A DNA stretch of 64,000 bases, taken from Clostridium sp. 'deep sea' (GTDB lineage Bacteria > Bacillota > UBA994 > PWPR01). The position numbers were made by a program, and so were the translations under genes. The notes beneath the pieces were generated by a model. It was not told where the DNA came from, searched no databases, and saw only the letters and a program-made list of their open reading frames with translations. The stretch lies in NCBI RefSeq assembly GCF_014931565.1, contig NZ_CP063353.1:1736001-1800000 (forward strand). The letters run 5' to 3'. Shown here in pieces: positions 13,865 to 52,820 of this stretch. Every line of letters begins with the position of its first letter. The first letter of the stretch is position 1.

Positions 13865-14051
13865 GAAGATGATTATTGGAGATATCTTTTTAGATAACCG
13901 TAGAAGCAAGGAATATTTTTGCTTGAACTTATTCTGAAACTTTCAGGTCAATAACAATAATCTGACACTACCCTGGAGAGACTCATTTAATTGAGCATCG
14001 ACGAAGAAACTTATGATTAATAAGGAAACTTTCAGATAAAAGGACAGGGAA
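13865..14051 (+). promoter_or_regulatory. tandem glycine riboswitch
   Basis: Two consecutive aptamer-like modules are present. Module 1 has TTGGAGAT, an AT-rich hairpin, AACCGTAGAAGCAAG, and CTTTCAGGTCAATAA. Module 2 has CTGGAGAGACTCA...TTGAG, CATCGACGAAGA, and CTTTCAGATAAAAGGACAG. These match the glycine riboswitch pattern (GGAGAG, CCGAAGGxGCAA, CUCUCAGGxAAAAGGACAG) in the right order and spacing, though the GAAGGGGC cores are diverged. The last GGACAG overlaps the 5' arm of the terminator at 14042, so ligand binding probably prevents termination. The next gene is a Gly_transporter-family protein, which supports the assignment. Confidence 0.85.
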
Positions 14052-14090
14052 TAAAAAGCAATTAAAGGCTTTTTATTCCCTGTTCTTTTT
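14042..14090 (+). terminator. riboswitch expression-platform terminator
   Basis: An 18-bp stem (14042-14059 with 14068-14085, one G-U) with an 8-nt loop, then five T. Its 5' arm includes the 3' end of aptamer 2, making the two structures mutually exclusive. Confidence 0.85.
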
Positions 14091-14137
14091 AGTACATGCG
14101 AATAAAAGGCGTATTATAACTGAAAGGAGTAGTTATT

Positions 14138-14815
14138 ATGTTTTGGTTTAATGTATTTGATATTATAGGCACTGTCGCATTTGCAATATCTGGAGCTTTG
14201 GCTGGCATGAGAAAACAGCTTGATTTATTTGGTGTTATTACACTATCTATTACTACTGCTTCTTTTGGAGGATTAATGCGTGATATCTTTATAGGTAAAC
14301 TTCCTCCAACTATTTTTACAAACCCAAAATATGTTGTAATAAGTTTAATTACAGCACTTATAACTTTTGTTATATACCCAATTATCTTAAAAACTCTTTC
14401 GATCAAAACAAATAAATTTGGCATAAACCTAATATTAATCCTTGATGCTATAGGTCTAGGAGCTTTTACTGCTTTAGGAACAGAGATAGCAATATCCCAT
14501 GATATAAACAATATTTTTAGCGTAGTATTTATGGGCACTGTTTCTGGAGTTGGCGGTGGCGTTATTAGAGATGTTTTTATTAGAAATATACCCCTTATCT
14601 TAAAAAAAGAAATATACGCCTTAGCATCCATCACGGGTGCTACAATAATGTTTTTTTCACATAGTTTATTACCAACAATGCTTGCTATGTACCTTTGTTT
14701 TATAGCAACAGTTTCACTAAGAATTTTATCTATGCGATTTCAGCTTAATCTACCAACGGCTAAAATATGTTTAGATGAATTAGATGAAAATTGTACTGAT
14801 AAATCCTGGTGCTAA
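14138..14815 (+). CDS. glycine transporter-family (TRIC/UPF0126, PF03458) membrane protein
   Basis: The protein is 225 residues with about seven membrane segments. It has two copies of the family repeat: GTVAFAISGALAGMRKQLDL ending SFGGLMRDIF, and ALGTEIAISHDINN ending GVGGGVIRDVF. The GG-x-x-RD motif in each half is the signature. Bacterial members are trimeric cation-channel homologues, and the family was renamed Gly_transporter because of glycine-riboswitch association. The upstream riboswitch gives direct local support for movement of glycine across the membrane; import or export cannot be told. AAAGGAG precedes the ATG. Confidence 0.9.
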   Translation: MFWFNVFDIIGTVAFAISGALAGMRKQLDLFGVITLSITTASFGGLMRDIFIGKLPPTIFTNPKYVVISLITALITFVIYPIILKTLSIKTNKFGINLILILDAIGLGAFTALGTEIAISHDINNIFSVVFMGTVSGVGGGVIRDVFIRNIPLILKKEIYALASITGATIMFFSHSLLPTMLAMYLCFIATVSLRILSMRFQLNLPTAKICLDELDENCTDKSWC

Positions 14816-17138: not shown

Positions 17139-18134
17139 TTAGGCTATATATATAATTTTACTATTAGTAAACCTACTATTTAGCTGCTTAATTAAAAATT
17201 GGGTGCTTTCTTCTTTAATTTTAGGCCTATAACAATATTTACCTCTACCTCTGCCTGTCATAATATTTTTATTAAAGAAACTATAAGCGTTAGGAAAAGC
17301 CTCTGTGTTTATAGCATTCTGCACATAACTATAGGTCATAAATATCATTTCAAAAAATAACTGTTTTTTAACTTTAGTAGATAAGTTATCTGCTAAAAAC
17401 GTAAATAACTCTACATATTCTTTTTGCCAATCCTTTATTAGTATAATTGGAGCTATCAGTATTCCTACTTGGTAACCTGCCTCAGCAAGTTTATTAATCG
17501 CCTCAACTCTAGTATTTAGTGACGATGTTCCTAACTCAATTCTATTTATTATTAATGCTGGATTAACACTCATTCTTACTATAACTTTTCCGTTATGATT
17601 AAGCGGTAAAATACTATCTACCATACTAAATTTAGTAGGAAAAGTTATTTTAGCTTTTTCATTAGCACAAAACTCATTAATGGTATAGATTAAGTTATTG
17701 GTAATTTCATTCTCTAAAATTAAATCACTATTACTGCCAATTTCGAACACAGCATTGGGTTGTTTTTGGGCTTGTACAATAAGCTTTTTCATCATTTTTT
17801 CTCTATTTACAAACAGTCTTAAGTAAGAACATTTATTATAATTACAAACTAAATAACAATACAAACAAGCTGCACTACAACCCGATGATGTCCAAGGAAC
17901 TAAATAGTTTGATACCTTTTGATTAGGTACATATCTATGCGTTTTACGAGTACCAATAATTATTAGTTTTTTTAAATAGGTAAAATCACTATTTGCCATT
18001 TTACGTAATTCTGGAATATTATTATGGTTTGAAATTTCTACCCACTCACAGTTTTTAAACCTACTCATTAACTGTTTACCTAAATCATAGTCTTTAATAG
18101 TCTGTTCAAAATAAATTTTAGCTGGTTTTATCAT
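17139..18134 (-). CDS. splB: spore photoproduct lyase (radical SAM)
   Basis: The protein is 331 residues. The radical-SAM cluster motif is CSAACLYC (CxxxCxxC) within WTSSGCSAACLYCYL, as in SplB. The flanking RKTHRYVPNQKVSNYLVPWT and the late GRGRGKYCYRPK segment, with a conserved cysteine, are also typical. The enzyme repairs the thymine dimer 5-thyminyl-5,6-dihydrothymine in germinating spores, which marks the organism as a spore former. The gene begins 4 bp after the stop of the FAD oxidoreductase gene, using GAGAAG inside that gene's end as ribosome binding site. Confidence 0.93.
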   Translation of the reverse strand: MIKPAKIYFEQTIKDYDLGKQLMSRFKNCEWVEISNHNNIPELRKMANSDFTYLKKLIIIGTRKTHRYVPNQKVSNYLVPWTSSGCSAACLYCYLVCNYNKCSYLRLFVNREKMMKKLIVQAQKQPNAVFEIGSNSDLILENEITNNLIYTINEFCANEKAKITFPTKFSMVDSILPLNHNGKVIVRMSVNPALIINRIELGTSSLNTRVEAINKLAEAGYQVGILIAPIILIKDWQKEYVELFTFLADNLSTKVKKQLFFEMIFMTYSYVQNAINTEAFPNAYSFFNKNIMTGRGRGKYCYRPKIKEESTQFLIKQLNSRFTNSKIIYIA

Positions 18135-20545: not shown

Positions 20546-21052
20546 CTAACTGCCTATTTTAAATACCTGCGATACACCTGGTATGTCATCTAGTAGTTCT
20601 TGGCTTTCTGTATACTCAATTTGCAATTGACTGTAAAGATTACTCCAAAATTTTACAGCTGGCAAGTTGTTTGCAATTTGCTCAATTTTATAGGTTCCAA
20701 CATGGCATTTAAATAGCACCTGAATAGCACGTTTACCAAAACCTTTTCTTCTATAAGATTTTAGTATAAAAAATTCATGTACACTTAAATCAACATCTTT
20801 TGGAACATATCTGCCCATATTAACTAGTATAAACCCTATTATGTTATTTTCTAATTTAATAAAATAAGGCAGTAAATCTGGTTGTTTAAAATATAACTCA
20901 ATACCCTCATAAATAAACAAACCATTCTTATTTATTTGCAAATCATCTGCATATTGTGATAAATCATGTAAATATAATGAAACTATATTTTTTAAGACTT
21001 CTTGTTGTTCTTCACTTACAATCTCAATATTAATATTTTGATCAGAATTCAT
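20546..21052 (-). CDS. GNAT-family N-acetyltransferase
   Basis: The protein is 168 residues. The acetyl-CoA loop is YRRKGFGKRAIQVL after the strand VDLSVHEFFIL, and motif B is QIANNLPAVKFWSNLY. The N-terminus (EQQEVLKNIVSLYLHDLSQY) is typical of a subgroup of stand-alone acetyltransferases. The substrate is unknown. AGGAGAA precedes the ATG. It stands 62 bp upstream of the coiled-coil gene and may share a transcript with it. Confidence 0.85.
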   Translation of the reverse strand: MNSDQNINIEIVSEEQQEVLKNIVSLYLHDLSQYADDLQINKNGLFIYEGIELYFKQPDLLPYFIKLENNIIGFILVNMGRYVPKDVDLSVHEFFILKSYRRKGFGKRAIQVLFKCHVGTYKIEQIANNLPAVKFWSNLYSQLQIEYTESQELLDDIPGVSQVFKIGS

Positions 21053-21295: not shown

Positions 21296-23020
21296 TTATT
21301 TTTGCTTTACAAGCTTGGTAAACTGATGTTTTAACTTAGTTAATTCTAAGTATTCTTTATCAAGCTGCTTATAAGCTTCACTACTTAATTCTAAGCCATT
21401 AAATTCACTTACTATTATCGCTAATCTGTTCTTTATAATCATAAGCTGTTCATGAGCATAATTTTGAAGTTCATTTTTGTGTTGCTTTTCTTGTAGCTGT
21501 ATATACTGCACAAAAGAATACTCATATCTCTTGATTTTTTTATTCTCAAATACTAGTACCTTATCACATATTTTGTTTAAAAAATAACGATCATGAGATA
21601 CAACTATAAGTGTTCCTTTATAGTCTTTAAGTGTTTTCTCTAACATCTCTCTGCTGTGCAAATCTAAATGATTAGTTGGTTCATCTAGTATCAATACATT
21701 ATTATTTTGCAGAATCATCTTGGCTATTTTTATTCTTGTTATTTCACCTAAACTAAGGGTTTGTATTTGTTTATAGACCATTTCGTTAGTAAATCCTAAA
21801 TTTGCTAAAGTAGTTTGTACTAAGGCCTGCTGTTTAAAGTTACTTGTTTCAAAATAATCTAAAATTGTTTGATTTTCATTTAAGGTTAGGTCATCTTGGC
21901 TTAAATAAGCTACTTTAGCTGAAGAGCTAAGGTATAGTTTACCTTGATTTAACTTCCTACTTTTTAAAATAGCTTTTATTAAAGTAGTTTTACCACAACC
22001 ATTGGCTCCAAAAAGGGCTATTTTTTCTGCTCTTTTAATATAAAAAGAACTATTACTAAAGATAATATTATTTGCATAGTTTACAGCTATATTTTGAGCC
22101 TCTAGTACCCTTTCACCACCAATGTTATGGCTTGTAATCTTAAATTTAATAGCTTGTTCTGCATTTGGTTTAGCTAACCCTGTTAAATTAATTTTTTGTA
22201 ATTTTTTTATTTTGGATTTAATCTGTTTATCCTTCTTTTTTGCTTTAACTCTAAAGTACTCTTTTAATCCATCTTTTTTTGTTGATTGAGAATGTGCTTT
22301 AGCAGACCATTGTCTTAGCTGGTTTATTTCCTCCTTAATGCTTTGTTTATGCTTCTCTTGTTCTTTAAATTTTTGTAATTGATCATTATATCTTTTTTGC
22401 TTTAGCTTACGATAATAACTATAGTTTCCCTTATATAGCTGTGCTGTACCACGCTCAATTTCAATTGTTTTACTCACACATTGATCTATAAAATAGCGAT
22501 CATGTGATATTATTATTATGGTACCTTGGTAGTTATTAATCTCTTTTATAAGCCAATTTATACCCAAATAATCTAAATGATTTGTGGGTTCATCTAATAT
22601 TAATAGCTGTGGTTTTTTTGCCCAAACACTTGCTATTGCTAACTTACGCTGCTCTCCTCCACTAAGACTATTCAACCTATTTTCACAAAAATCATAAACT
22701 TTATTTATACCGAGCTGCTTTGTTGTATAAAGATAGTTTTTTAAAGAGTCACTTTTATTGATTTGCTCAAAATCTTTATTATTATATACAATAGCTTGTT
22801 TTAAATATCCCTTACTATAATTATGACTATGCCATATAATTTGGCCTTCATCTGGCTGAATATTATTTAACAAAATATTTACTAAAGTGGTTTTACCAGC
22901 CCCATTATCTCCAACAATTGCAATTTTTTCACCAAGCTTAACCTCAAAATTAATGTTTTTTAAGATAACTCTATCACCATATCTTTTTTTAATATTTATA
23001 CATTTAAACAATAAACTCAA
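21296..23020 (-). CDS. ABC-F ATPase, probable ribosomal-protection resistance protein
   Basis: The protein is 574 residues with two ABC cassettes and no membrane segments. Cassette 1 has GDNGAGKTT, LSGGEQRK and LLILDEPTNHLD; cassette 2 has GANGCGKTT, LSLGEITR and VLILDEPTNHLD. Between them is the charged helical linker (about 200-300) that reaches into the ribosome in antibiotic-resistance ABC-Fs of the Vga/Lsa/Vml type. The C-terminal extension is also charged. The drug class cannot be told. The start is TTG with AGGAGG eight bases upstream. A promoter, a seven-codon leader ORF and a terminator precede it, the usual attenuation layout of such genes. Confidence 0.88.
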   Translation of the reverse strand: MSLLFKCINIKKRYGDRVILKNINFEVKLGEKIAIVGDNGAGKTTLVNILLNNIQPDEGQIIWHSHNYSKGYLKQAIVYNNKDFEQINKSDSLKNYLYTTKQLGINKVYDFCENRLNSLSGGEQRKLAIASVWAKKPQLLILDEPTNHLDYLGINWLIKEINNYQGTIIIISHDRYFIDQCVSKTIEIERGTAQLYKGNYSYYRKLKQKRYNDQLQKFKEQEKHKQSIKEEINQLRQWSAKAHSQSTKKDGLKEYFRVKAKKKDKQIKSKIKKLQKINLTGLAKPNAEQAIKFKITSHNIGGERVLEAQNIAVNYANNIIFSNSSFYIKRAEKIALFGANGCGKTTLIKAILKSRKLNQGKLYLSSSAKVAYLSQDDLTLNENQTILDYFETSNFKQQALVQTTLANLGFTNEMVYKQIQTLSLGEITRIKIAKMILQNNNVLILDEPTNHLDLHSREMLEKTLKDYKGTLIVVSHDRYFLNKICDKVLVFENKKIKRYEYSFVQYIQLQEKQHKNELQNYAHEQLMIIKNRLAIIVSEFNGLELSSEAYKQLDKEYLELTKLKHQFTKLVKQK

Positions 23021-23108
23021 TTGTATCGCCTCCTACCATATTTAGTTCAACAGAAATTAAATATTGGTACATAGGTGGTACACTTTTAGCTAATTAATAT
23101 TTAACAAC

Positions 23109-23143
23109 AAAAAAACTGCAAATTGAACTTAATCAACTTACAG
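23109..23143 (-). terminator. attenuator terminator upstream of ABC-F gene
   Basis: On the minus strand CTGTAAGTTGA pairs with TCAATTTGCAG (11 bp, two G-U) and is followed by seven T. It lies between the leader ORF and the ABC-F start, so the gene can be expressed only by read-through or anti-termination. Confidence 0.75.
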
Positions 23144-23330
23144 CCTATTTATACCATACCAAAACCCTATACGGGCTTATTGTAATTTAAGTATATAGCA
23201 GTAGTATATAAATACTAACGAAATAAGTTATTATTGTTCTTAGCTAATTTGTGTACAAAACACGCAATATTAAAACTAATGTTAAGTAAACACTAATTTA
23301 TTGAATGTTTATTACGCAATATTTAATTAA

Positions 23331-23354
23331 TTAAGCTAAAAACAAATTAATCAT
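23331..23354 (-). CDS. 7-residue regulatory leader peptide (MINLFLA)
   Basis: ATG ATT AAT TTG TTT TTA GCT TAA, with AAGGAG six bases upstream, lies about 35 bp after a consensus promoter and 310 bp before the ABC-F start. Very short leader ORFs in this position regulate several ABC-F and erm resistance genes through drug-stalled ribosomes. Here that role is inferred from position, site strength and the downstream terminator. Confidence 0.7.
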   Translation of the reverse strand: MINLFLA

Positions 23355-23389
23355 TTCGTTCTCCTTATCTTTTTTACTTACTACTTATT

Positions 23390-23418
23390 ATATTAACAGC
23401 GTAAATTTTTAATGTCAA
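23390..23418 (-). promoter_or_regulatory. promoter of the leader peptide/ABC-F transcript
   Basis: Minus strand TTGACA, 17 bp, TAATAT, about 20 bp before the leader ribosome binding site. Confidence 0.75.
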
Positions 23419-23484: not shown

Positions 23485-23763
23485 CTAAATCTTATTATAC
23501 TTTTTTAGATTAATAATATTAGATATTATAGTAACAACCCCCATAATTAAGGATGAAGTAGCCCAGGTTGAATGTTTAGTATAAAACCATTTTACACTCA
23601 TTAAAACAAGTATAACACCTAGTATAGCACCCACACTTGAACCAATTACAGCTATCTTTTTGGGTGGATTAGTTAAGGTCTCTACAGATCTACTAGACAT
23701 TTTATGAGATTTATCCACTATCTCTTGGGTTTTATTAAGTACTTTTTCAGTATAATTTTTCAT
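23485..23763 (-). CDS. small two-TM membrane protein
   Basis: The protein is 92 residues. A charged N-terminal helix (about 1-35) is followed by two membrane segments, AVIGSSVGAILGVILVLMSV and TSSLIMGVVTIISNIINL. I do not recognise the family. AAGGAG precedes the ATG. A copy of the operator found before the adjacent TetR gene lies at 23782, next to this gene's ribosome binding site, so it is very likely controlled by that TetR protein. Confidence 0.65.
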   Translation of the reverse strand: MKNYTEKVLNKTQEIVDKSHKMSSRSVETLTNPPKKIAVIGSSVGAILGVILVLMSVKWFYTKHSTWATSSLIMGVVTIISNIINLKKYNKI

Positions 23764-23854: not shown

Positions 23855-24496
23855 TTAAGCAAAAACTGCATCTCTAAATTCCCTTAATTCTAACATTACT
23901 TCACTGTCAATAACGGGTAAGCCCAGGCTATCAAATAGTTTTTTAATAAACACAATTTTATTTGTAAATTCAACCTTTGTGACGTTTACTACGCTTGGAT
24001 TAATCCAAATATTAAGTAGAATCATAATAACCTCAGATAACTCTTTTGAGTCACTAACTTTAATAGATCCATCGTTTATACCTTCTATCAAAATCTCATT
24101 TATTAGTGGAGCATATACAGTTATGCAATTGTTAATTTGCATAGCCAATATTTTAGGATTTTTTAAAAGTGATGGCGACGATTTTAATAGTTTTTTTTGT
24201 TGCTGATTAGAGACCGAAGCTATAAAAACACGCTTTAACTTTTGTAAACCATTTATGCTATTATCACTCTTTATTTTATTAATAGGGTTTTGCTCTTCAA
24301 AAAGTCTTGTAGTAACAGCATCTATTATTTCCTCTTTAGACTTAAAGTGATGATAAATAGCCCCTCTGCTTAGTCCGTTAAGATTATCTACTATATCTTT
24401 AATAGTTGTTTTATCGTAGCCTTTTTCAATAAAGAGATTAAGTGATACATCGAGTATTTTATTAATAGTATTCTCTGGATATTTATTTCGTGGCAT
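23855..24496 (-). CDS. TetR-family transcriptional regulator
   Basis: The protein is 213 residues. The DNA-binding domain reads FIEKGYDKTTIKDIVDNLNG followed by LSRGAIYHHFKSKEEII, with the classic YHHF recognition helix end. The C-terminal ligand domain is not assigned. AGGAG precedes the ATG, and a palindrome at 24507 sits just upstream of it, pointing to autoregulation. The gene is followed by the small two-TM protein gene, which has its own copy of the operator. The ligand may be a membrane-active compound, but that is inference. Confidence 0.9.
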   Translation of the reverse strand: MPRNKYPENTINKILDVSLNLFIEKGYDKTTIKDIVDNLNGLSRGAIYHHFKSKEEIIDAVTTRLFEEQNPINKIKSDNSINGLQKLKRVFIASVSNQQQKKLLKSSPSLLKNPKILAMQINNCITVYAPLINEILIEGINDGSIKVSDSKELSEVIMILLNIWINPSVVNVTKVEFTNKIVFIKKLFDSLGLPVIDSEVMLELREFRDAVFA

Positions 24497-28463: not shown

Positions 28464-31400
28464 TCATATCTTAAATTTTAACTTATTTAAATCATTAAGC
28501 ATATCTTCTGTAAGATTTTCTTTACTAAAGAGCATAAATTGCGGTTTGGTAGTAAATGTTTCACCATCATTAACACTATGACTACTATAATTGGTACTAT
28601 AAGATACAAGATTTGTATTACTAAACCAATGTAGGTCTTCAGTATTTATAACCCTATATAAACTATAATCTGTTGTTTTTGATTTAAACTGCAATATGTT
28701 TTTTAATTGAATTTCATACTGTAAGTTACCACAACTAAACTCAGCTTTTTGGCCATTATCTGTATAAATAATGCTGTTATTAGCTATGTCTGCTTGCTGA
28801 ATGAAGCTCTTTTGCACCATATTTAACTTACTAAAATATTTTCCAGCGTTTTGATTTATTACTGCAAATGAACACACAATTGGAATGCCTGACAAAAGAA
28901 GATAATACTCGGTTATTGTTAGTCCTTTATACTTATCATGTTCAGTTATTTCTAAGCAGGTTTTAACTCCACTCCATACATTTCCAAAAATATCTGTTAC
29001 TTCAATAAAGCCTGCAGATTTTTGCTCGTTATGAACAGAGGCATAACTTATATTACCAGGAAGCATGGATGTTCCACCAGTCCAATAGTTCCACCATCCT
29101 TTAATACTTGGAGTTGGAAAACTATTATTAAACCACTCTTTGCCTTTATAAATTATAGAGTAAATACCAGGTGCATATTCAGGAGAAGACTTTATTACTA
29201 TATGCTCATTACTTACCTCATAAACTGTATTATCTCCTTTGTTGTGTTTTAATTGTTTTACTGGAGTATTGTTTTTAAAAAATAGTAGTTTTTCTTGTTG
29301 CATTTTTTTAAAGTTTAAACTAAAGTCTAAACTTAATATATCTAATTCAGGCTTTTTCACAATAGACTTATTAACTACAGCCTTGTTATTATTAAATTTA
29401 AACTCTGTGCAGCTATTGCTCTGTGTAAAGCAATTATACTTACTGCTTACACTTAGCTTACCTTCTATAGCTAGTTTTTTATGCTGCTCACACTCTAATA
29501 TAATTTTATCAGTTATAAATGGATTATTGTTATTTATTTTACACATAAATGAATCACTAACGTCGCTAGAGCTTAGGGGATTTTCATAACCTAAATAACT
29601 TCTAAATTGCTGCCATGAGTTAAAGCTATCCATAGTATAGATTATGGGCTTAGTTCTTGTTGTATATGAGCTATTTACTTTACTTTCTATCATAACAACT
29701 ATATTATCAAAGGACACATTACAGCTATCATGCCAGCTCAAACCAGCTTTAACTTTTGTGTTATTAAAAACCCAGTTTTCGCTAAATTTGTTAATGTCCC
29801 ATTGTTTAAGAAGTATTCCCTCAAAGTTTTTACTATTAATAACTTCTCCATTATAAGGTAAATACGCGTCAATTAATAAGAATTTACAGTCTTGAGTAAC
29901 ATAAAGATCTTTAATACTACTCTTATTTTCTAAATCACAATATAGCTTAATAATACCATCTTGAAAGAGTTCTATATAATAATGCATAATTACATTTGCA
30001 AATTTCTCTGATTTAAATGTTGCTTTAATAATCTCACTAGTACTTTTAGTAATGAACTCTACTTTAATAGGTTTTTTACTTTTAAACTCATTGTAATAGG
30101 GTTTACCAAGCCTTGGTATTGCTGCGCTTAGTTCATAAGTAGAGTTAGTAGCAAGTTTAGAAATATTGGTAGCATTATTTGCTTTCATTAATCTGGCACA
30201 AAAAGCACCGTTATATAGCTCATAGGCTTTATCCGACTCTCCATGAAACACCCCAGAGTATCCTCTAAAAACTGTTTTACAGTTTGCTAAGTAGTTAATA
30301 TTATTATCTTGAGTTTTTATGTTTACTTCAAAATCTTCATTATAAAAACTATATTTTTTAACAATACAATTAACCAATAAGGATTTTTTTTGCTTAGCAT
30401 TTAACTTTACAACCTGTTGGGCATTTATAAAACTAACGTTATCTGTGTCTTTTAAACTAAAGTTGATTTCTATATCTTCATTAAAGTTATTTTCTAGGTT
30501 AATATAACATTTATTTTCCTTATTTAACTGCTTAACTTGGTTAGCATTAGCAACCTCAATTTCTATAGGCCTTTTTGGATTAACACCTATTTTAAATACT
30601 GACTCTTTGCCATTAATGTTTATGATAGATGTAACACAAGGGTGAGTTTTTAATGCTTGTTGTACATGTTTAATAGGCTCTATAAAAAACTTGCTTACTA
30701 CCTGCTGCTTATTTTTTATACTAAAACTTAAATCAGCACTGTATTTAATATTTTTATTATCTACACCTTTAATTTTAATATTTAAAGGTTTGCCACTCTT
30801 ATTTACTAATTCATATGTAATATCATACTCTTTACCAAAAACCAATTTTTGCTCAGCTAGTCTCACTTTTACCAGATAATCATTGGTTTCAATACAGGTG
30901 AGACCTCTACCTTTACGCTCAAATTCCATACTCAACATTAAATCATTTTTTTGCCAGCTATACTTATAAAAATGAAAGTCCCCTTCAATATTGCCATCAC
31001 TCTCAACCTTAATTTCACGGGTACTATCTTTATACCAATCTATCGTATTAAAATACTGCGCTACTGCTTCAGTTTTTTTAACGTAAGGTAAAAAATTCAT
31101 TAAATGAGTATATTCATCATATTTTTCCCAAAAGAAACCACACTTTTTATACAAAGGAACAGCCTTTTCATTACCTTGCCAAGTGTATAAATCTAACCTT
31201 GGCCATTTTGAATTTATAGCAGCAGCTACACATGTTAATACTAACTTTTTACCAACCCCTTTACCATGGTAATCGGGTCTTACATTTAGTAGCGGTATGT
31301 ACGAGGCTCCTTCATCTTCTTTGTAGTTTGAAAAACTACAGTAACCAACAACATCATTATTATGTAAGGCTAAAAAAGAATGGATATTGCCAGCATTTTT

Positions 31401-31532
31401 TTCCTCTTCCATAACACTTTCAGCAGTGTGAATAACACTCTCTCCGCCCCAGCTATCGCCACTTTTGGACCACATATCAGCTAGTGACTCTGCGTATTTA
31501 TAGTCAAATTCAACAATTTTAATATCGTTCAT
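28464..31532 (-). CDS. giant GNAT-fusion protein, paralogue 1
   Basis: The protein is 1022 residues. Residues 1 to about 155 are a GNAT acetyltransferase: LNVRPDYHGKGVGKKLVL is the acetyl-CoA loop and NEKAVPLYKKCGFFWEKYDE is motif B. The remaining 860 or so residues have no signal peptide or membrane segment and look beta-rich, with blocks such as FRGYSGVFHGESDKAYELYN, SPEYAPGIYSIIYKGKEWFN, and PSIKGWWNYWTGG. I do not recognise this body. A paralogue of 1027 residues lies upstream in tandem, with matching blocks throughout. GGAGGAG precedes the ATG. Two hairpins and a 22-codon ORF lie just upstream; the amidohydrolase gene follows. Confidence 0.8.
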   Translation of the reverse strand: MNDIKIVEFDYKYAESLADMWSKSGDSWGGESVIHTAESVMEEEKNAGNIHSFLALHNNDVVGYCSFSNYKEDEGASYIPLLNVRPDYHGKGVGKKLVLTCVAAAINSKWPRLDLYTWQGNEKAVPLYKKCGFFWEKYDEYTHLMNFLPYVKKTEAVAQYFNTIDWYKDSTREIKVESDGNIEGDFHFYKYSWQKNDLMLSMEFERKGRGLTCIETNDYLVKVRLAEQKLVFGKEYDITYELVNKSGKPLNIKIKGVDNKNIKYSADLSFSIKNKQQVVSKFFIEPIKHVQQALKTHPCVTSIININGKESVFKIGVNPKRPIEIEVANANQVKQLNKENKCYINLENNFNEDIEINFSLKDTDNVSFINAQQVVKLNAKQKKSLLVNCIVKKYSFYNEDFEVNIKTQDNNINYLANCKTVFRGYSGVFHGESDKAYELYNGAFCARLMKANNATNISKLATNSTYELSAAIPRLGKPYYNEFKSKKPIKVEFITKSTSEIIKATFKSEKFANVIMHYYIELFQDGIIKLYCDLENKSSIKDLYVTQDCKFLLIDAYLPYNGEVINSKNFEGILLKQWDINKFSENWVFNNTKVKAGLSWHDSCNVSFDNIVVMIESKVNSSYTTRTKPIIYTMDSFNSWQQFRSYLGYENPLSSSDVSDSFMCKINNNNPFITDKIILECEQHKKLAIEGKLSVSSKYNCFTQSNSCTEFKFNNNKAVVNKSIVKKPELDILSLDFSLNFKKMQQEKLLFFKNNTPVKQLKHNKGDNTVYEVSNEHIVIKSSPEYAPGIYSIIYKGKEWFNNSFPTPSIKGWWNYWTGGTSMLPGNISYASVHNEQKSAGFIEVTDIFGNVWSGVKTCLEITEHDKYKGLTITEYYLLLSGIPIVCSFAVINQNAGKYFSKLNMVQKSFIQQADIANNSIIYTDNGQKAEFSCGNLQYEIQLKNILQFKSKTTDYSLYRVINTEDLHWFSNTNLVSYSTNYSSHSVNDGETFTTKPQFMLFSKENLTEDMLNDLNKLKFKI

Positions 31533-31948: not shown

Positions 31949-34900
31949 TTAGTTAGTTAGTTTAAATCTCACTTGTTTTAAATCCTTCAACATTTCTTTT
32001 GATAGGCTTTCTTTACTAAAAATGCCAAACTGAGGAATAATAATCACAGGACTATTACTTGCTAAACTAATATCAACAACATCATAAGCATAATAAGTGT
32101 TTTTAGTATAGAAAGAAACATGTTTTCCATCATTCAACAATCTGGTTAAAGTATAATCTACTGTTTTTGAGCCATGAATAGTTATATCTTTAGCTACTAT
32201 TTCAAACTCTCTCTCACCATATTGAAATACAACATCTTCACTGCCTTCACATCTCTTAATCCAATTTTGGGTGCGATCAGTTGTTTGTTCAATAAAAGAA
32301 TACAATTGTAAACTTAAATTTTGTTTAAAACTACCCTTTGTTTGCGAAACTACAGCAAAATTAGCTACCACAGGAACACCATTTAGTAATAAATAATACT
32401 CGTTAACTGTTATTCCTTTATATTTTTCGTGTTTAGTCACAATAAGGCTTGTTTTAATACCAGACCATACATTACCTAAATTATCTTCAATTCTAACAAA
32501 TTGGGCTTGTTTTTCTTCTTTATTTAGTGAAGCAAAGCTGAATTCATCTAACATTGTAAACATTCCACCTGTATAACAATTCCACCAAGCTTTTATTGAT
32601 GGCTCGGGAAAACTACTATTTAACCATTCGCTACCCTTATACTGCATAGAATATATTCCTGGCGAAAAATTAGGTGCAGCTTTTAGGCTTATAATACCGT
32701 TATTTACTTCATAAATACTTTTGCCCTTTTCTGTAAACTGCTTAGATTTTATCGCTTTTGAATCTACAAAGAATATTGCTTTTTCCCTCTTAAGATTTTG
32801 GGTATTTAGCTCAATATTGAGTTTAACAATATCTATCTCTGGCCTAGCATTAAGTAAAGCAGATTTTACAGCTTTTCTATTTTGGATACATAGATTTGTT
32901 TTTGCTATAGTTATTGAGTTATTAAAAGATTCGACTTCTATACTACCTTTAATCTCTTGTCGTTTATTTTCATAGATTAATAACTCAAATTGATCTTTTA
33001 TAAATGGATTATTATTATTAATACTACTTATTAAGCTATTTTGGCTAGCAACTGAATTTAATTTTTTAGTATAACCCAAATAATTTCTAAACTCCTGCCA
33101 ATTTTTAAAGGTATCTATGGTAAGTATGATAGGCTTAGTAAAGACCGATTTATGTGCCTGTATATTATTTATTTTACTCTCTATCATAGTAGAGACCCCT
33201 CTAAAAATAGCCTCTAAACTTGGGTGCCACGCTATGCCTTTAGTATTTCTAAAATCACTAAATAACCAGTTTTCGCTTAATTTTTTGGCATCCCAATTAC
33301 CTACATCAACACCATCTGCACATTCACTTATAATAATGCCTTGTTCATAAGGCAAATAACCATTATTTAATAACAGGTAACTATCCTGACATACAAATAA
33401 ATCCTTCACATTTTTGTCTGAGTTGTTTTCAACTTCATAGTAAATTTTTATTATTCCACCTGAAAAAAGCTCAAGGATATAGTTTAAAGCTATATTTGGT
33501 AATTTTTCTGAATTAAATTTTAAAATTAAACACTCACTATTACTTTTTTCAACATATTTAACTTCATTGGGTTTTTTATTTTTAAACTCACTGTAATAAG
33601 GTTTTCCAAACTGAGGTATACTTGTATCAATAACCTCCTCTTCATCCATACCTAGTTTATAAAACTCTGTGTAGTTAGATTCTTTAATGAATTTAACAAC
33701 ATATGGACCATTGTAAAGATAATATGCTTCTTCTGTTTCACCATGAAACATGCCATAATAACCTCTAAAAGTAGTTTTTAAATTAGTAACATGCTCTACA
33801 AGATTATTATTTACAGCTATTTTTACCTGTAACTGCTCACTGTAAAATCCATAAGACTTAATAATACAGGGTATTGCTAAATGGTGTTTTTGTTTAGGCT
33901 CTAACTCTAAAGCAATATTTTTATTTTTAAACTCTACCAAATCATTATTGATTAGCTCAAAATTAAGCTTAATATTCTGTTCAAAATTATTTTCGATATT
34001 AATATAACAAATACTATCTGCATTAAGCTGTTTATATTCATTATCATTAGCAATATCAATCTTAATAGGTTGAATTGCATTAACACCAATTTTAAACAAT
34101 GATTTTTTACCATTTATTTTAATTAAAGAGCTAACACAGGGATGAGTTTTTATTTTAGCCTGTTTCTCTTTTATATCTTCTACAAAAAACTGCCCGTAAA
34201 CTATTTCAGTATTGTTTATATCGTTACTATAATTAAAGTTAAACTTAATATTTTTATCATTTTGACCTTCAATACTAACTTGTAAAGGTTTGCCACTTTT
34301 ATTAGTTAACTCATACTTTATTTTATAACTTGAACCACAAATTAACTTTTGTTTTTCTAGCCTAGTTTTTATTAAATAATCATTTGTTTCTATACAGGTT
34401 AAGCCACGGCCACGTCGCTCAAATTCCATATTTAAAACTAAGTCATTTTTTTGCCAATTATATTCGTAAAAATCAAACTGACCTTCAACGTTTCCATCGC
34501 TCTTAATTTCAATTTTGCGCTTATTATCTTGATACCAATCTATCTCTTTAAAGTACTCTTTAACAGCCTCGGTATCCATTACATAAGGCAAAAAATTCAT
34601 TAAATGTGTATATGCATCTTCTTCCTCCCAAAAAAATCCACATTTTTTATAGAGAGGAACTGCTTTATTATTACCAGTCCAGGTATATAAGTCGAGCCTG
34701 GGCCACTCACATTTTAAGGCCATTTCAACACATTTAAGAACCAACATCTTACCTACCTTTTTGCCTAAATAGTCGGGTCTTACATTTAAAAGGGGAATAT
34801 ATGAGGCCCCTTCATCTTCTTTGTAATTAGAAAAACTACAATAACCAACAACCTCTTCACCAGCTACTGCTAAAAAGGTATAAATATTACTGTATCTTTC

Positions 34901-35032
34901 TTCTGCCTCTTTTACACTTTCTGCAGTTCGAATAGTGCTATCTCCACCCCAATTTTGACCGCTTTTATTCCACATATGAGCCAATGATGCAGCATACTTT
35001 GGTTCATAGTGTACAATTTTAACTTCGTTCAT
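31949..35032 (-). CDS. giant GNAT-fusion protein, paralogue 2
   Basis: The protein is 1027 residues with the same layout as the downstream paralogue. The N-terminal GNAT domain (about 1-155) has LNVRPDYLGKKVGKMLVLK, in which the usual G-x-G loop is GKKVGK, and NNKAVPLYKKCGFFWEEEDA. The large body shares RGRGLTCIETNDYL, FRGYYGMFHGETEEAYYLYN, FSPGIYSMQYKGSEWLNSSF and PSIKAWWNCYTGG. No catalytic motif was recognised in the body. It is preceded by a 31-codon ORF and a perfect hairpin terminator. Tandem position and similarity over full length point to duplication of a cassette, now well diverged. Confidence 0.8.
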   Translation of the reverse strand: MNEVKIVHYEPKYAASLAHMWNKSGQNWGGDSTIRTAESVKEAEERYSNIYTFLAVAGEEVVGYCSFSNYKEDEGASYIPLLNVRPDYLGKKVGKMLVLKCVEMALKCEWPRLDLYTWTGNNKAVPLYKKCGFFWEEEDAYTHLMNFLPYVMDTEAVKEYFKEIDWYQDNKRKIEIKSDGNVEGQFDFYEYNWQKNDLVLNMEFERRGRGLTCIETNDYLIKTRLEKQKLICGSSYKIKYELTNKSGKPLQVSIEGQNDKNIKFNFNYSNDINNTEIVYGQFFVEDIKEKQAKIKTHPCVSSLIKINGKKSLFKIGVNAIQPIKIDIANDNEYKQLNADSICYINIENNFEQNIKLNFELINNDLVEFKNKNIALELEPKQKHHLAIPCIIKSYGFYSEQLQVKIAVNNNLVEHVTNLKTTFRGYYGMFHGETEEAYYLYNGPYVVKFIKESNYTEFYKLGMDEEEVIDTSIPQFGKPYYSEFKNKKPNEVKYVEKSNSECLILKFNSEKLPNIALNYILELFSGGIIKIYYEVENNSDKNVKDLFVCQDSYLLLNNGYLPYEQGIIISECADGVDVGNWDAKKLSENWLFSDFRNTKGIAWHPSLEAIFRGVSTMIESKINNIQAHKSVFTKPIILTIDTFKNWQEFRNYLGYTKKLNSVASQNSLISSINNNNPFIKDQFELLIYENKRQEIKGSIEVESFNNSITIAKTNLCIQNRKAVKSALLNARPEIDIVKLNIELNTQNLKREKAIFFVDSKAIKSKQFTEKGKSIYEVNNGIISLKAAPNFSPGIYSMQYKGSEWLNSSFPEPSIKAWWNCYTGGMFTMLDEFSFASLNKEEKQAQFVRIEDNLGNVWSGIKTSLIVTKHEKYKGITVNEYYLLLNGVPVVANFAVVSQTKGSFKQNLSLQLYSFIEQTTDRTQNWIKRCEGSEDVVFQYGEREFEIVAKDITIHGSKTVDYTLTRLLNDGKHVSFYTKNTYYAYDVVDISLASNSPVIIIPQFGIFSKESLSKEMLKDLKQVRFKLTN

Positions 35033-45875: not shown

Positions 45876-48800
45876 TTAAATTAATTTTGCTTCAGTTAAC
45901 AACCTATAAAGAATAGCAGCAAGTTCTGCCTTAGTTATATTACTTTTAGGGCATAATTGACCTTTTTCATTTCCTTTAAGGAGGTTATTTTTAATACATA
46001 ATGCCATAACCTGCTTTGCCCAGTTTCCTACTTGATCTTTATCTGCGAACTTATTAAGCTCTTGCTCTATTTCCTGCTCGGTAATCTCCACACTTAAACC
46101 TGCCAGCTTCATTGTTCTTACAATAAGGGCTGCTGCCTCTTCTCGGGTTATCTTGTTGTGAGGTCTTAGGGTGTTATCTACAGCATAGCCACTTATTAAG
46201 TTATACTCAAGGGCAGTCGCTACATAGCCAAAGTAGTCATCGGTTTGCTTAACATCAGTAAACTTAGAAACCGTTCCCTTATCGCCAATACCAAGTGCCT
46301 TTACTATTGTTTTGGTAAAGTATAATCTTGTTATCTCTTGATTAGGTTTAAAGTTTGTATCAGTTGATGGTGCTACAATCATTCGGGAGCCCATTTCATT
46401 ACAGATATTTTCTGCCCAGTGTCCCTCTACATCTTCATACTGCTGTGGGTTATAAATCACCGAATAGGTACTATTAGTTAAGCTATTAATTTTAGCATAG
46501 TACTTTTTACCTATTACTATTATTTTTGTTGGTACATGGCAGAATGATCCATCGTGGTAAACCACTATACCTGTAGTTATTTTACTAGCTTCTACTCCCT
46601 CTGGTATGGCTATTGTTCTCTCTACATAGCTATTGTATTTTTTCACTTCTACAGTCTTATTTTTATAGCTGCACTTCACCGTAAAGTCTACTGGAGGCAC
46701 TACCAAGGTTAGTTTATCTTTTTCAGCTGTCTTTTCAACTACTTTTATCATTTCCTTTGGTGTTCCACCAATTTCAATACCTACCTCAATATCCTCTAGA
46801 TCAAGATCTTCTCCTAGTTGCTCTGAAACCTCATCTATATTAATCTGTTCAGCAGGTAGAGCATAAGAGGCTATTTGGGTTTGAATTTCTATTACTGCTT
46901 CTTTTTGCTCCATGGTTTTTACTATTTTCCCATTTAGCTTACTTTTAACTGTGCTTATTTTATTGCTTATTGGTATATGTACCACTGGCTTTTCCTCTTG
47001 CTCTAGTTTCTTTTGCAATTTCTTTTCGTCTACAGTTACTATTGTCACCCGCTTGCCGTTTTGATATTTAGTTTGAGATTTAGCTACAAATTGCTGCACC
47101 TCTCCATTTACCTCTACTGGTATCCATGTGCTTGAGCTTCCACTATTGCTTGGTTTTATCGCTGTAAAGCTCCATGTATCTTTATTGCTAATTCCTGCAA
47201 AAGCATTACCTGAGCTATCCTTGAAGCAAGTGTTATCTATTGCTACATAGTACTTAGTGGATTTTTGTAAAGGGTTTGTTAGGGTAGTGCTTGCAATATT
47301 ATTTACAACTGATACCTTACTAACAGGTATTGCCTCTACTATGCTATCATCGCTATATTTTTTTAGTGTTATGTTACCTGTTCCTTTAACTATATTTTCA
47401 ATAAAGGTCAGTTCTAAATTAGTGCTAGTTGATACTGATGTTGCTCCAGTTGCTGGGTTATATGCTGTTACTGTAGGGGCTACTGTATCCTCTGTTCCTG
47501 TTCCTTTTAGGGTAAAGTTAAGGGTGCTATTGGCTTTATCGTTAGTGGTAATAGTTACAGTTGCTGTTTTCTCACCCGTAGTGCTTGGATCAAATTTTAT
47601 TTCAAAAATCGTCTCAGACCCTGGTAATACATCACCAGCAGCAGTTTGTATATAAAATCCACTTCCACTACAATTAAAAGAATCAACTAATAAAATATAG
47701 TTTCCTGAGTTATGTATTGTAAATACTTTAGTAGCAGAACCAGTATTAATATCTACATCACCAAAATCCGTATCGTTGCTTGTACTTGGGGCACCACCAT
47801 TATTAATAACACGACTATTTCCAGTTACGCTCATAATCACAATTTCATTGTCTTTTGTAATTACATTTACTTTTTTGCTTAAGCTATTGTAGTCTGAAGC
47901 GGGGCTAGTTGAACTAATGTTTATATCGCTTGTTATATCCCCATCTAGGTCAGTATCGTCAACACCTGTTATTGTTACTAGGTGCTCTACATTCCATTTA
48001 GCGTTTTCTATTGTAATAGATGTACTAGATAAGGCTACTTCACTTTCATCTGTTGGTGCTAATGTTATTTTCACATCGTCTGTTGGTTGGGTTGCTAACT
48101 TAATAGCTATTTGATCTGTTGAACCTTCAGTAACACTAGTTGTACCGCCCGCTTCAATTATTATTAGATCTGGTACATCATTATCTACTGTTGTTACTTT
48201 AACTGCTTGATTTACTACTGAGTCGAAGTTATTATCACTTTCTGTACTATTTATACTTAATGTAATATTAGTATCTTGATTACCATCTTTTAAATAATCA
48301 TCTACACCCGTTACTGTTACTGTTTGGGGATTGTTCCAATTAGAGTTTGTAAAGGTTAAGCTGTTTTTATCTAGGGTTAGTTCAGCTGTATTGGGGTTAC
48401 TTATATCTAAAACAACATCTATTATTGGTTGGGCATCTAAAACTACGCTAAAGCTATCTGTAGCACCATCTTCTGCTACTGATGTATTGCCATTTGTTTG
48501 GGTTATGGTAAATCCTGCTGTATCATCGCTTGTTGTTGTAACAGAAACTGTTTTATTTAAATTATGATACTGACTATCACTGGTATCATTTTTTACGGCT
48601 ATGCTAATATTTGAAGCTATATTGCCATCTATAAGGCTATCGTCAACACCTGTGAGTGTTACTGTTTTATTACTGTAGTCATCTTTAGTAAAGGTTAAGG
48701 CAGCTGGGCTAGCAGTTACTTCACCTGTATCTGAGCTACTAACTTCTAATACTACTTTATCTTGTGGTTCTGTATCTATAGCTATAGTAAAAGTGTCTGT

Positions 48801-51800
48801 TGAACCATTCTCACTAACTGTTTTCCCTGTTGTATCTGTTAGGGTTAATCCTGCTACATCATTATCCAATGTTAATACTGCAATTATTTGACCTATATTA
48901 TGGAAATAAGGGTCACTATTTGTGCTATCTACACTTAAATTAATACTGGTTGTTATATAGCCGTCTATTAAATGATCATCTAGTCCTGTTACAGTTACTA
49001 CCTGCTTAATATTCCAGTTATCTTTATTAAAGACTAGGCTAGTGGTGTCTAGTTCTACCTCACTAGTGTCCGATTTATTTATGTTGATTACAACATTATT
49101 TACAGGCTTTGCATCTAAAACTACTGTAAAGGTATCTGTAGTTCCTGCCTCACTTACTTCTGTATCTCCCGCTGTTTCTTCAACAGTAAAACCAGCTATC
49201 TCATTATCTTCTGTTGTTACTGATAGAGTATCTCTTAGGCTATGGTAATGGATATTACTACTTGAGTTATTTACGCCTAATTCAATTCCTACTTCTTTAT
49301 CTCCATCTACAAAGGTATCATTTATAGCTGTTACAACTACTGTTTGTACCTTATCCCAATTAGAACTGGTAAATGTTAAGCTACTTTTACTAAGTGTTAA
49401 CTCCTCGATGTTTAGAACAGTTAAGTCTATAACCACATTGTTAGCTGGCCTTGCATCTAATACTACGGCAAAGCAGTCTGTTGCTCCATTTTCAGTAACA
49501 GTAGTATTTCCATCTGTTTCAGTTACAGTAAAGCCTGCAACCTCATTATCTTCTGTTGTTACAACTAGAGTTTCGCTTACATTATGATAAGTTAGGTCAC
49601 TATTTGAATTATTTACACTCAGGTTAATATTAGTGGTTACATTACCATCTACCAGGTTATCATCTAATCCTGTTACAGTAACAGTTTGAGCTTGATTCCA
49701 ATCACTTGTTGTAAAGGTTAAGCTATCGTCACTAATTTTTATTTCTCCCACAGTAGATTTCGTTATATTTATAACTACATTACTGGTTGGTTTAGTATCT
49801 AGCACTACATCAAAGGTATCTGTAGTGGTTTCTTCTGACACTATCGTTTTATCTCCTGTTTGAATTAATGTTATGCCTGCTTCATCATCATCAACTGTTG
49901 TTACAGTAATCTTTTGATTAGCAATAGGGTCAAAGCTATCATCACTTTTTTCATCATTGATACTTACTGTTATATCTGTATTTTGATTTCCATCATCTAT
50001 GTAATCATCTATTCCTGTTACTGTTACTGTTTGGGGATTGTTCCAATTAGAGTTTGTAAAGGTTAAGCTGCTTTTATCTAGGGTTAGTTCAGCTGTATTG
50101 GGGTTACTTATATCTAAAACAACATCTATTATTGGTTGGGCATCTAAAACTACGCTAAAGCTATCTGTAGCACCATCTTCTGCTACTGATGTATTGCCAT
50201 TTGTTTGGGTTATGGTAAATCCTGCTGTATCATCGCTTGTTGTTGTAACAAAAACTGTTTTATTTAAATTATGATACTGACTATCACTGGTATCATTTTT
50301 TACGGCTATGCTAATATTTGAAGCTATATTGCCATCTATAAGGCTATCGTCAACACCTGTGAGTGTTACTGTTTTATTACTGTAGTCATCTTTAGTAAAG
50401 GTTAAGGCAGCTGGGCTAGCAGTTACTTCACCTGTATCTGAGCTACTAACTTCTAATACTACTTTATCTTGTGGTTCTGTATCTATAGCTATAGTAAAAG
50501 TGTCTGTTGAACCATTCTCACTAACTGTTTTCCCTGTTGTATCTGTTAGGGTTAATCCTGCTACATCATTATCACTTATAGTGGCAGTTACTGCTTGCTC
50601 ACCTTTCTCAGTGCCATTATTTACTGATGTTATCTCAACATTAATTCTTTCTTGACCTTCAGCTATATTATCATTTGTGCTTGTTATAGTAATGCAGTTT
50701 TCAATATCACCAGCATTGATTTTAATAATAGTAGGCGCTACATAGTCTTCATTACTTGCATCACCTGTGTATGCTAGGTTTACTGTTATGTTTTTACCTG
50801 ACTCTTCTGACAGTGTAGCTTTTAGAGTAGCCTGTCCACTATTTTCAGCTAAGTTGCTTTTTTCTATTGTTAATGTTACTGTTGGAGGATCATCATCGTC
50901 TAAGATAGTTATTGTATGTTGTTGTGTTCCATCTTCAGTTCCACCTGTCACTGAATCAACATCTATAATAATAGTTTCATCTTCTTCATCTAAGGTATCC
51001 TGAACACTTGTTAGTATTGTTGTTGCTTGATTCAGGTTTGCTGGTATTGTTATGGTATTACTTGCTAAGTTATAATCTGTACTCGACCCTGTAGCAGTTG
51101 TGCCAGAGGATAGTACAGCTAAATTTACTGTTATATCTTGAGTTGTGCTGCCAGTTTTATGAAATGTTATTGTACATGTCTCATTATTTTCTAATATTTG
51201 AGTTGAGCTCACCTCAAGAGTTACTAAGGGCTTATCGCTGTCGTCATTTATCTTACAAATAACCTGCTGGATTCCATTTTCCCTACCATTAGTTACTGAG
51301 TCTATGTCAACAATAATGGACTCTTCCTCTTCATAGATGGTGTCTTTAATTCCCTTTAGAACTGTTGTTGCAAATAGCTGACCACTAGGAATTATAATAG
51401 AGGAAGTGGCTGTGTAATCTGTTATATTAGTAGCTACTCCCGAAAATGCAAGGTTAACTGTAATATCTTTGTTAAATTTATGTAATAATGTAGCTTTAAG
51501 ATTTGTAGTACCACCATTTTCATTAATTTCAGAGCTAGGATCTAAGATTAGTGTTACTGTTGGTTGTGATATGACGTTTAAGGTAGCTGTGTAAATATCA
51601 TCACTATCAAAAGCCCCATCATTTACCTTAAAAGTAAATGCAGAATTGTGACCATTGGAGTTTATGTATTTAAATTGACTATTATCTAAATTTGCTTTAG
51701 TAACTATTGAATCAACAGTAAGGGCAGTCTCCTCATTATCTATTGTATTACTATTATTTAAATCTATCCATAAAGACCCAATCTTAGGAGTGGCTGTTAT

Positions 51801-52679: not shown

Positions 52680-52820
52680 GCTGCTTTCTCCTTTACTTAT
52701 CATATTCCAATTAAATATTATAGTTTAATATGAATAATCATTCCATACTTATGTGCATAATTATTAATGATAGTTAATAAACATTTATACTTAAAGAATT
52801 AAGCTCTTCACTAGTTAAAC

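Follow-up and report, generated by a model that had tools for sequence, protein, structure and literature searches.

A VmlR-like ABC-F gene of Clostridium sp. 'deep sea' behind a probable ribosome-mediated attenuator with a seven-codon upstream reading frame

The window analyzed here, a stretch of 64,000 nucleotides from contig NZ_CP063353.1 of Clostridium sp. 'deep sea', carries on its minus strand a gene for an ABC-F protein related to VmlR and VmlR2, preceded by a leader in which a promoter, a short upstream open reading frame (uORF) led by a Shine-Dalgarno (SD) sequence and an intrinsic terminator are all present, in that order. Very probably, this leader is a ribosome-mediated attenuator of the VmlR type. 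Computed directly were the leader parts, the family to which the protein belongs, the folds expected for the RNA and how often the layout recurs ahead of related genes; induction of the window gene by drugs is predicted. Regulators of this kind are already known, and what is new lies in the details, namely a further lineage for a VmlR-type attenuator, a longer uORF and a predicted drug response. The window leader would thereby add a lineage to those in which VmlR-type ribosome protection is controlled by drug sensing.

Results

The VmlR-like ABC-F protein

The product of the window gene scored 504 bits with NF000355, the model of ABC-F ribosomal-protection proteins (cut-off 380), and both sets of ATPase motifs are present in it. 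Its nearest solved relatives in the PDB were 8buu (E 1.3e-149, 503 bits) and 6ha8 (E 5.2e-107, 362 bits), both labeled ExpZ in that database, while the third-best relative reached 242 bits. The entry 6ha8 is taken here to be VmlR of Bacillus subtilis, and the loop alignment shows that the drug-facing loop between the ATPase domains of the window protein is a near-match to that of 6ha8. The eight-residue loop insertion of VmlR2 is absent from the window protein. VmlR2 is the closest solved protein to it, 8BUU being identified as VmlR2 of Neobacillus vireti in PMC10201436. Judged by sequence, the window gene is an antibiotic-resistance ABC-F gene of the VmlR/VmlR2 type, and, given this relatedness and the VmlR-like loop, it likely protects against pleuromutilins, lincosamides and streptogramin A.

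No close homologue was found in one genome of the same genus and one of the same family, the best same-genus match having 31% identity, and a scan of the genome contigs yielded one remote ABC protein and nothing else.

Organization of the leader

A previous sequence-only reading had proposed a resistance-type ABC-F gene controlled by a leader-peptide attenuator, composed of a consensus promoter, a seven-codon frame with AAGGAG, a hairpin ending in seven T and the ABC-F start. These four parts were all recovered (Table 1), the gene starting with TTG at 23020 behind AGGAGG, and the proposal as a whole is supported by the VmlR/VmlR2-type sequence of the protein together with the vmlR-like parts of the leader. 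Two facts had escaped that reading: the peptide MINLFLA starts with MIN, which is the whole uORF of B. subtilis vmlR, and seven-codon uORFs also precede other related ABC-F genes.

Table 1. Features of the ABC-F gene and its leader in the window
Feature	Position	Strand	Basis
Promoter TTGACA-17-TAATAT, extended -10	23390..23418	-	motif match and shuffles
Shine-Dalgarno AAGGAG of the uORF	23361..23366	-	six bases ahead of the ATG
uORF ATG ATT AAT TTG TTT TTA GCT TAA, peptide MINLFLA, seven codons	23331..23354	-	sequence
SL-1, long hairpin enclosing the uORF (anti-antiterminator)	23198..23384	-	predicted fold
SL-1 core, 12 pairs	23346-23333 with 23246-23233	-	predicted fold
Candidate antiterminator strand CUUAAUUAAUU	23325..23335	-	predicted to pair with 23138-23128 (5' arm and loop of the terminator) while a ribosome occupies codon 1 or 2
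SL-2, middle hairpin	23150..23195	-	predicted fold only
Intrinsic terminator, stem and seven U	23109..23146	-	terminator search and folding
SL-4, hairpin over most of the ABC-F Shine-Dalgarno	23022..23082	-	predicted fold
Shine-Dalgarno AGGAGG of the ABC-F gene	23029..23034	-	sequence
VmlR-like ABC-F ribosome-protection gene, TTG start, 574 aa	21296..23020	-	ORF and profile/PDB matches

The promoter hexamers occupy 23418-23413 and 23395-23390, with a 17-nt spacer and a TG ahead of the -10. When the 121-nt stretch preceding the uORF was shuffled 2000 times, a match of at least 10 of 12 bases accompanied by the TG arose in 0.3% of cases; across the wider 4 kb, promoter-like sites were not above chance (24 seen, 26.2 expected). 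Transcription would start near 23383, which would give a leader of about 363 nt. An SD-led uORF of the MINLFLA sort appeared in 4% of shuffles of the window leader. The terminator, with its stem at 23146-23113, reads CTGTAAGTTGA-TTAAGT-TCAATTTGCAG and then TTTTTTT; on both strands of the 4 kb, four terminator-like sites were found where 1.2 were expected. Folding of a 375-nt stretch comprising the leader gave a z of -4.85, none of 100 shuffles being equally stable. No family of Rfam 15 matched the leader, neither at the gathering score nor at E up to 1, and a search of the genome for a second copy gave nothing beyond one 27-base match.

Predicted folds and effect of a ribosome on the uORF

In the ribosome-free fold, SL-1 takes in the uORF, with its ATG paired and its SD mostly open. 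Among 1000 shuffles, 9 equalled or bettered the 12 pairs of the SL-1 core. By folding and shuffling together, the uORF lies in a hairpin predicted to exclude the candidate antiterminator.

The effect of a ribosome was modeled by constrained folding, with a footprint from -15 to +14 and a transcript ending within the terminator loop. The probability that the terminator 5' arm was paired upstream was 0.06 without ribosome, 0.66 with the ribosome on codon 1, 0.77 on codon 2, 0.30 on codon 3 and 0.07 on codon 7. Over 20 footprint settings it ranged from 0.52 to 0.80 for codon 1, from 0.16 to 0.77 for codon 2 and from 0.11 to 0.77 for codon 3, so that the effects at codons 2 and 3 vary with the footprint assumed. 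In the codon-1 model, 23335-23325 paired with 23138-23128, and shorter helices were also formed. Shuffling of the local stretch alone equalled this duplex in 10 of 1000 cases, but shuffling of the whole leader did so in 239 of 1000. When the middle of the leader was shuffled and both ends were kept, a shift as large was obtained in 1 of 150 cases, and the combination of low pairing in the free state with high pairing in the stalled state in none of 150. Shuffled middles usually left the terminator arm paired in both states (means of 0.65 free and 0.69 stalled), so the real leader is distinctive in hiding its strand until the stall.

The sequence-only reading had suggested that alternative pairing between the leader and a terminator arm could explain drug induction, with RNA folding as the check. 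Such a pairing was indeed found under the ribosome constraint, but at equilibrium the full terminator, with its 3' arm complete, outcompeted the alternatives, whether or not a ribosome was present: the model shows the candidate antiterminator as long as the 3' arm is still to be made, and not afterwards. Therefore the switch, if real, must be kinetic.

Two other pairings were considered. An antiterminator drawn by eye from the G074 class described below, UAAUAACUUA (23233-23224) with UAAGUUGAUUA (23140-23130), is not claimed, because the duplex test chose another pairing, no better than shuffles (530/1000). The pairing of 23185-23181 with the terminator arm, the first one tried, had a probability of 0.0.

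Leaders of homologous genes

The homologue search covered 61 relatives, 398 genomes of the phylum and four classes (13, 63, 59 and 348 genomes), these sets overlapping, and a first look at upstream regions comprised 36 loci. The uORF count was made on 49 better-matching loci, including the window copy (L013, L042-L055, L071-L103, L012), reduced to 48 by leaving out L087, whose upstream region was short. The rule was an ATG-initiated frame of 2-16 codons, behind an SD and located at -360 to -90. Such a uORF was present in 27 of the 48 leaders, the window included, against 4.6 expected from shuffles. It was absent by the rule in the other 21, among them L043, L044, L089, L090, L095 and L096; the rule overlooks L071, L076, L079 and L085, which have a similar uORF with a different SD or a GTG start.

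The same ribosome test, weak as evidence here, was run on homologous leaders. Twenty-two were entered and the finder located no terminator in L045; in the remaining 21, including that of the window, upstream pairing of the terminator arm increased in 13 and decreased in 3. For L013 and L098, the finder settled on weak hairpins (0.4 and -3.0 kcal/mol), which probably do not represent the terminator, and for this reason L098 failed as a positive control, its uORF MDN being known in Bacilli. Tests of uORF pairing on single leaders gave values of 5% or less in only 8 of 27.

As a separate observation, the uORF Met-Asp-Asn of L098 lies 194 nt ahead of its ABC-F gene and pairs very strongly with a downstream strand (0/300 shuffles); PMC9226507 has MDN among the vmlR uORFs of Bacilli tested.

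The G074 class and covariance model R1

In the G074 class, 21 loci matched and 20 leaders were aligned, L087 being omitted. Their uORF is strongly conserved, ATG CGC AAG NNN ATT CTG GCC TAA, and encodes mostly MRKxILA. By eye, 15 of the 20 start with Met-Arg-Lys and 18 have seven codons ending in Leu-Ala, the exceptions being L080, which ends in Leu-Val, and L078, with a stop at codon 4. In this last leader (L078:1193-1434) the stop leaves the tripeptide MRK, a natural test of the need for the remaining peptide.

RNAalifold recovered SL-1 and the terminator unaided. SL-1 was 89.8% paired and showed 12 two-sided changes, where shuffles averaged 4.3 and none of 500 was as high; the terminator was 95.6% paired, with 10 two-sided changes (0/500 shuffles), it being understood that related sequences surpass such shuffles more readily than independent ones. 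Most of the changes in SL-1 concerned the two leading bases of codon 4 (CG to UA in 5 leaders, GC to AU in 6), and the number of pairs with a two-sided change was 3, a value reached in 107 of 500 shuffles. The antiterminator of the class, formed by the 3' strand of SL-1 with the 5' arm and loop of the terminator, was 90.5% paired, versus 34-58% when slid, and in the 20 aligned leaders it contained no two-sided change and was not above shuffles. Since covariation was found for SL-1 and the terminator and none for the antiterminator, the case for the latter in the class is one of complementarity alone.

The covariance model R1, built from the 20 aligned leaders, gave 24 matches in 23 of the 63 genomes of the class. 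Twenty-three were strong (E of at most 1.3e-22), corresponding to the 20 training leaders and three new ones (G292, G421 and G403), each ahead of a VmlR-like frame; the weak one (G333, E 0.008) had no VmlR-like frame after it within the 2.2 kb read. Over the 49 other loci the best match was L091, with E 0.007. When R1 was run on the 64-kb window, its leader was not matched, and on the leader alone with filters off the segment 23203-23113 obtained 11.5 bits; thus the model does not place the window leader in the MRKxILA sequence family. What the window and the class have in common, by eye, is the layout, a seven-codon uORF ending in Leu-Ala and GGCUGUAAGU in the terminator.

Discussion

Relation to known systems

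The msrD leader encodes a macrolide arrest peptide (PMC10314930). In the window leader, as in those of erm and msrD, a resistance gene would be controlled through the stalling of a ribosome by a drug on a short leader ORF. An early stall is predicted to be sufficient in the window, whereas macrolide stalling within the peptide is what the erm and msrD leaders rely on.

The closest parallel by described layout is the experimentally studied vmlR leader of B. subtilis. As described in PMC9226507, its uORF lies in the first hairpin, after which come a middle hairpin, the terminator and a hairpin that covers the SD. It shares with the window the VmlR-like gene, the uORF inside SL-1 and the order of the hairpins, and its whole uORF, Met-Ile-Asn, equals the first three residues of MINLFLA. 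The window differs from it in uORF length (seven codons versus three), in leader length (about 363 nt versus 219 nt) and in a much longer SL-1. In PMC9226507, MIN and MRK were both tested as vmlR uORFs, MRK being less efficient. In PMC10201436, VmlR2 and cplR likewise combine a resistance ABC-F protein with a short uORF (MK[L/Q] and MR[I/M], respectively), different from that of the window and shorter, and the terminator and SD hairpin of cplR were shown by mutation. As to tiaA and are5sc of Streptomyces coelicolor, PMC12421871 describes how lincosamide, streptogramin A and pleuromutilin stall the ribosome on the start codon of the uORF, and terminator and antiterminator forms are proposed, as for the window; the uORF of tiaA is longer, and both differ from the window in that they concern ARE5 proteins of Actinomycetota with unrelated uORF sequences.

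Six heptapeptides, MINLFLA among them, were sought in literature text and none was found; logos and supplements lay beyond that search, so this absence is weak evidence. Among titles and abstracts of the 15 papers listed out of 21, no heptapeptide uORF leader of an ABC-F gene was seen.

Proposed mechanism and alternative explanations

What follows on drug response, kinetics and the part played by each hairpin is inferred from the above. Without drug, the seven-codon uORF would be translated and released, and its RNA would fold into SL-1; with SL-1 closed, the terminator 5' arm would be left for its own 3' arm and transcription would end at 23115-23109. If a lincosamide, pleuromutilin or streptogramin A blocked formation of the first peptide bonds, the ribosome would be held at codon 1 or 2, and SL-1 would be unable to close at its uORF end. 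The RNA just behind the uORF, 23335-23325, could then capture the terminator 5' arm ahead of the synthesis of the 3' arm, and the polymerase would continue into the VmlR-like gene. SL-4, over the SD of this gene, probably adds translational control.

A first alternative, which we regard as unlikely, is that MINLFLA acts as an arrest peptide in the manner of erm or msr, its amino acids being decisive, so that a macrolide or other drug stalls the ribosome late. The C-terminal Leu-Ala of 18 of the 20 aligned G074-class leaders, seen also within MFIKFLAF of L046, speaks for it. However, a ribosome on codon 7 left upstream pairing of the terminator 5' arm at 0.06-0.11, that is, it gave no antiterminator, and residue 4 of the class may be R, C, H, L, Q, F, G or S while the first two bases of its codon covary with the other strand. 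The stop at codon 4 of L078 also argues against a decisive peptide, as does the window protein, which is VmlR-like, unlike the macrolide-acting Msr.

Somewhat less probable still is a mainly translational, erm-like attenuation, in which a stalled ribosome would release the ABC-F SD from SL-4 with the terminator playing a minor part. Most of that SD is indeed paired within SL-4 (stretch 23008-23100, folding z -2.13, beaten or matched by 5 of 200 shuffles), and the cplR gene of C. difficile combines translational with transcriptional attenuation, as stated in PMC10201436. Nevertheless, a good seven-U terminator stands between the uORF and SL-4, these two are about 250 nt apart, and an unsystematic look met no pairing that would link them.

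The least probable explanation, that uORF and hairpins are accidents of AT-rich DNA, with an ordinary promoter and an unrelated hairpin, draws on the AT-rich region, on promoter-like sites being no commoner than in shuffles and on the failure to find a near relative of the window leader that could show conservation, yet it has against it the shuffle rates (4% for the uORF, 0.3% for the promoter, 1/150 for the ribosome-dependent shift) and the same layout ahead of related genes.

Going beyond the VmlR-type attenuator preferred for the window, we tentatively suggest, as a possibility somewhat short of an even chance, that VmlR-type leaders outside Bacilli form an undescribed family of RNA switches, whose seven-codon uORF is mainly a hairpin arm. 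Only the first codons would be read under drug, the remaining peptide being free to vary while the pairs are kept, and the window leader would count as a remote, AT-rich member, with the MIN start in common with B. subtilis. This offers a testable idea on the variation of uORF length, namely that for drugs acting early the first part of the uORF is enough and the remainder acts as RNA. The covariation at codon 4 in the G074 class provides a direct means to tell a peptide role from an RNA role.

Other features of the window

On the minus strand, 243 nt beyond the ABC-F gene, 20546-21052 encodes a GNAT acetyltransferase (PF00583). Upstream of the leader, also on the minus strand, there are a frame of 92 aa, weakly matching a family of phage membrane proteins (23485-23763; phrog_3996, E 0.00045), and a TetR-type regulator (23855-24496; PF00440). 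A glycine riboswitch aptamer lies on the plus strand at 13963-14057 (61.5 bits versus a gathering score of 32), followed by frames on both strands, 14089-14634 (-) and 14138-14815 (+).

Also on the minus strand are a spore photoproduct lyase family protein (17139-18134; PF20903, E 1e-60) and a protein of 2275 aa that combines an S-layer homology domain with Ig-like domains (45876-52703). Two adjoining minus-strand frames, 28464-31532 and 31949-35032, encode proteins of about 1020 aa each. In the product of the latter, Pfam recognized a GNAT acetyltransferase domain at the N-terminus and nothing else, and by eye the start of the former resembles it; tandem duplication of a long, unusual fusion may account for the pair.
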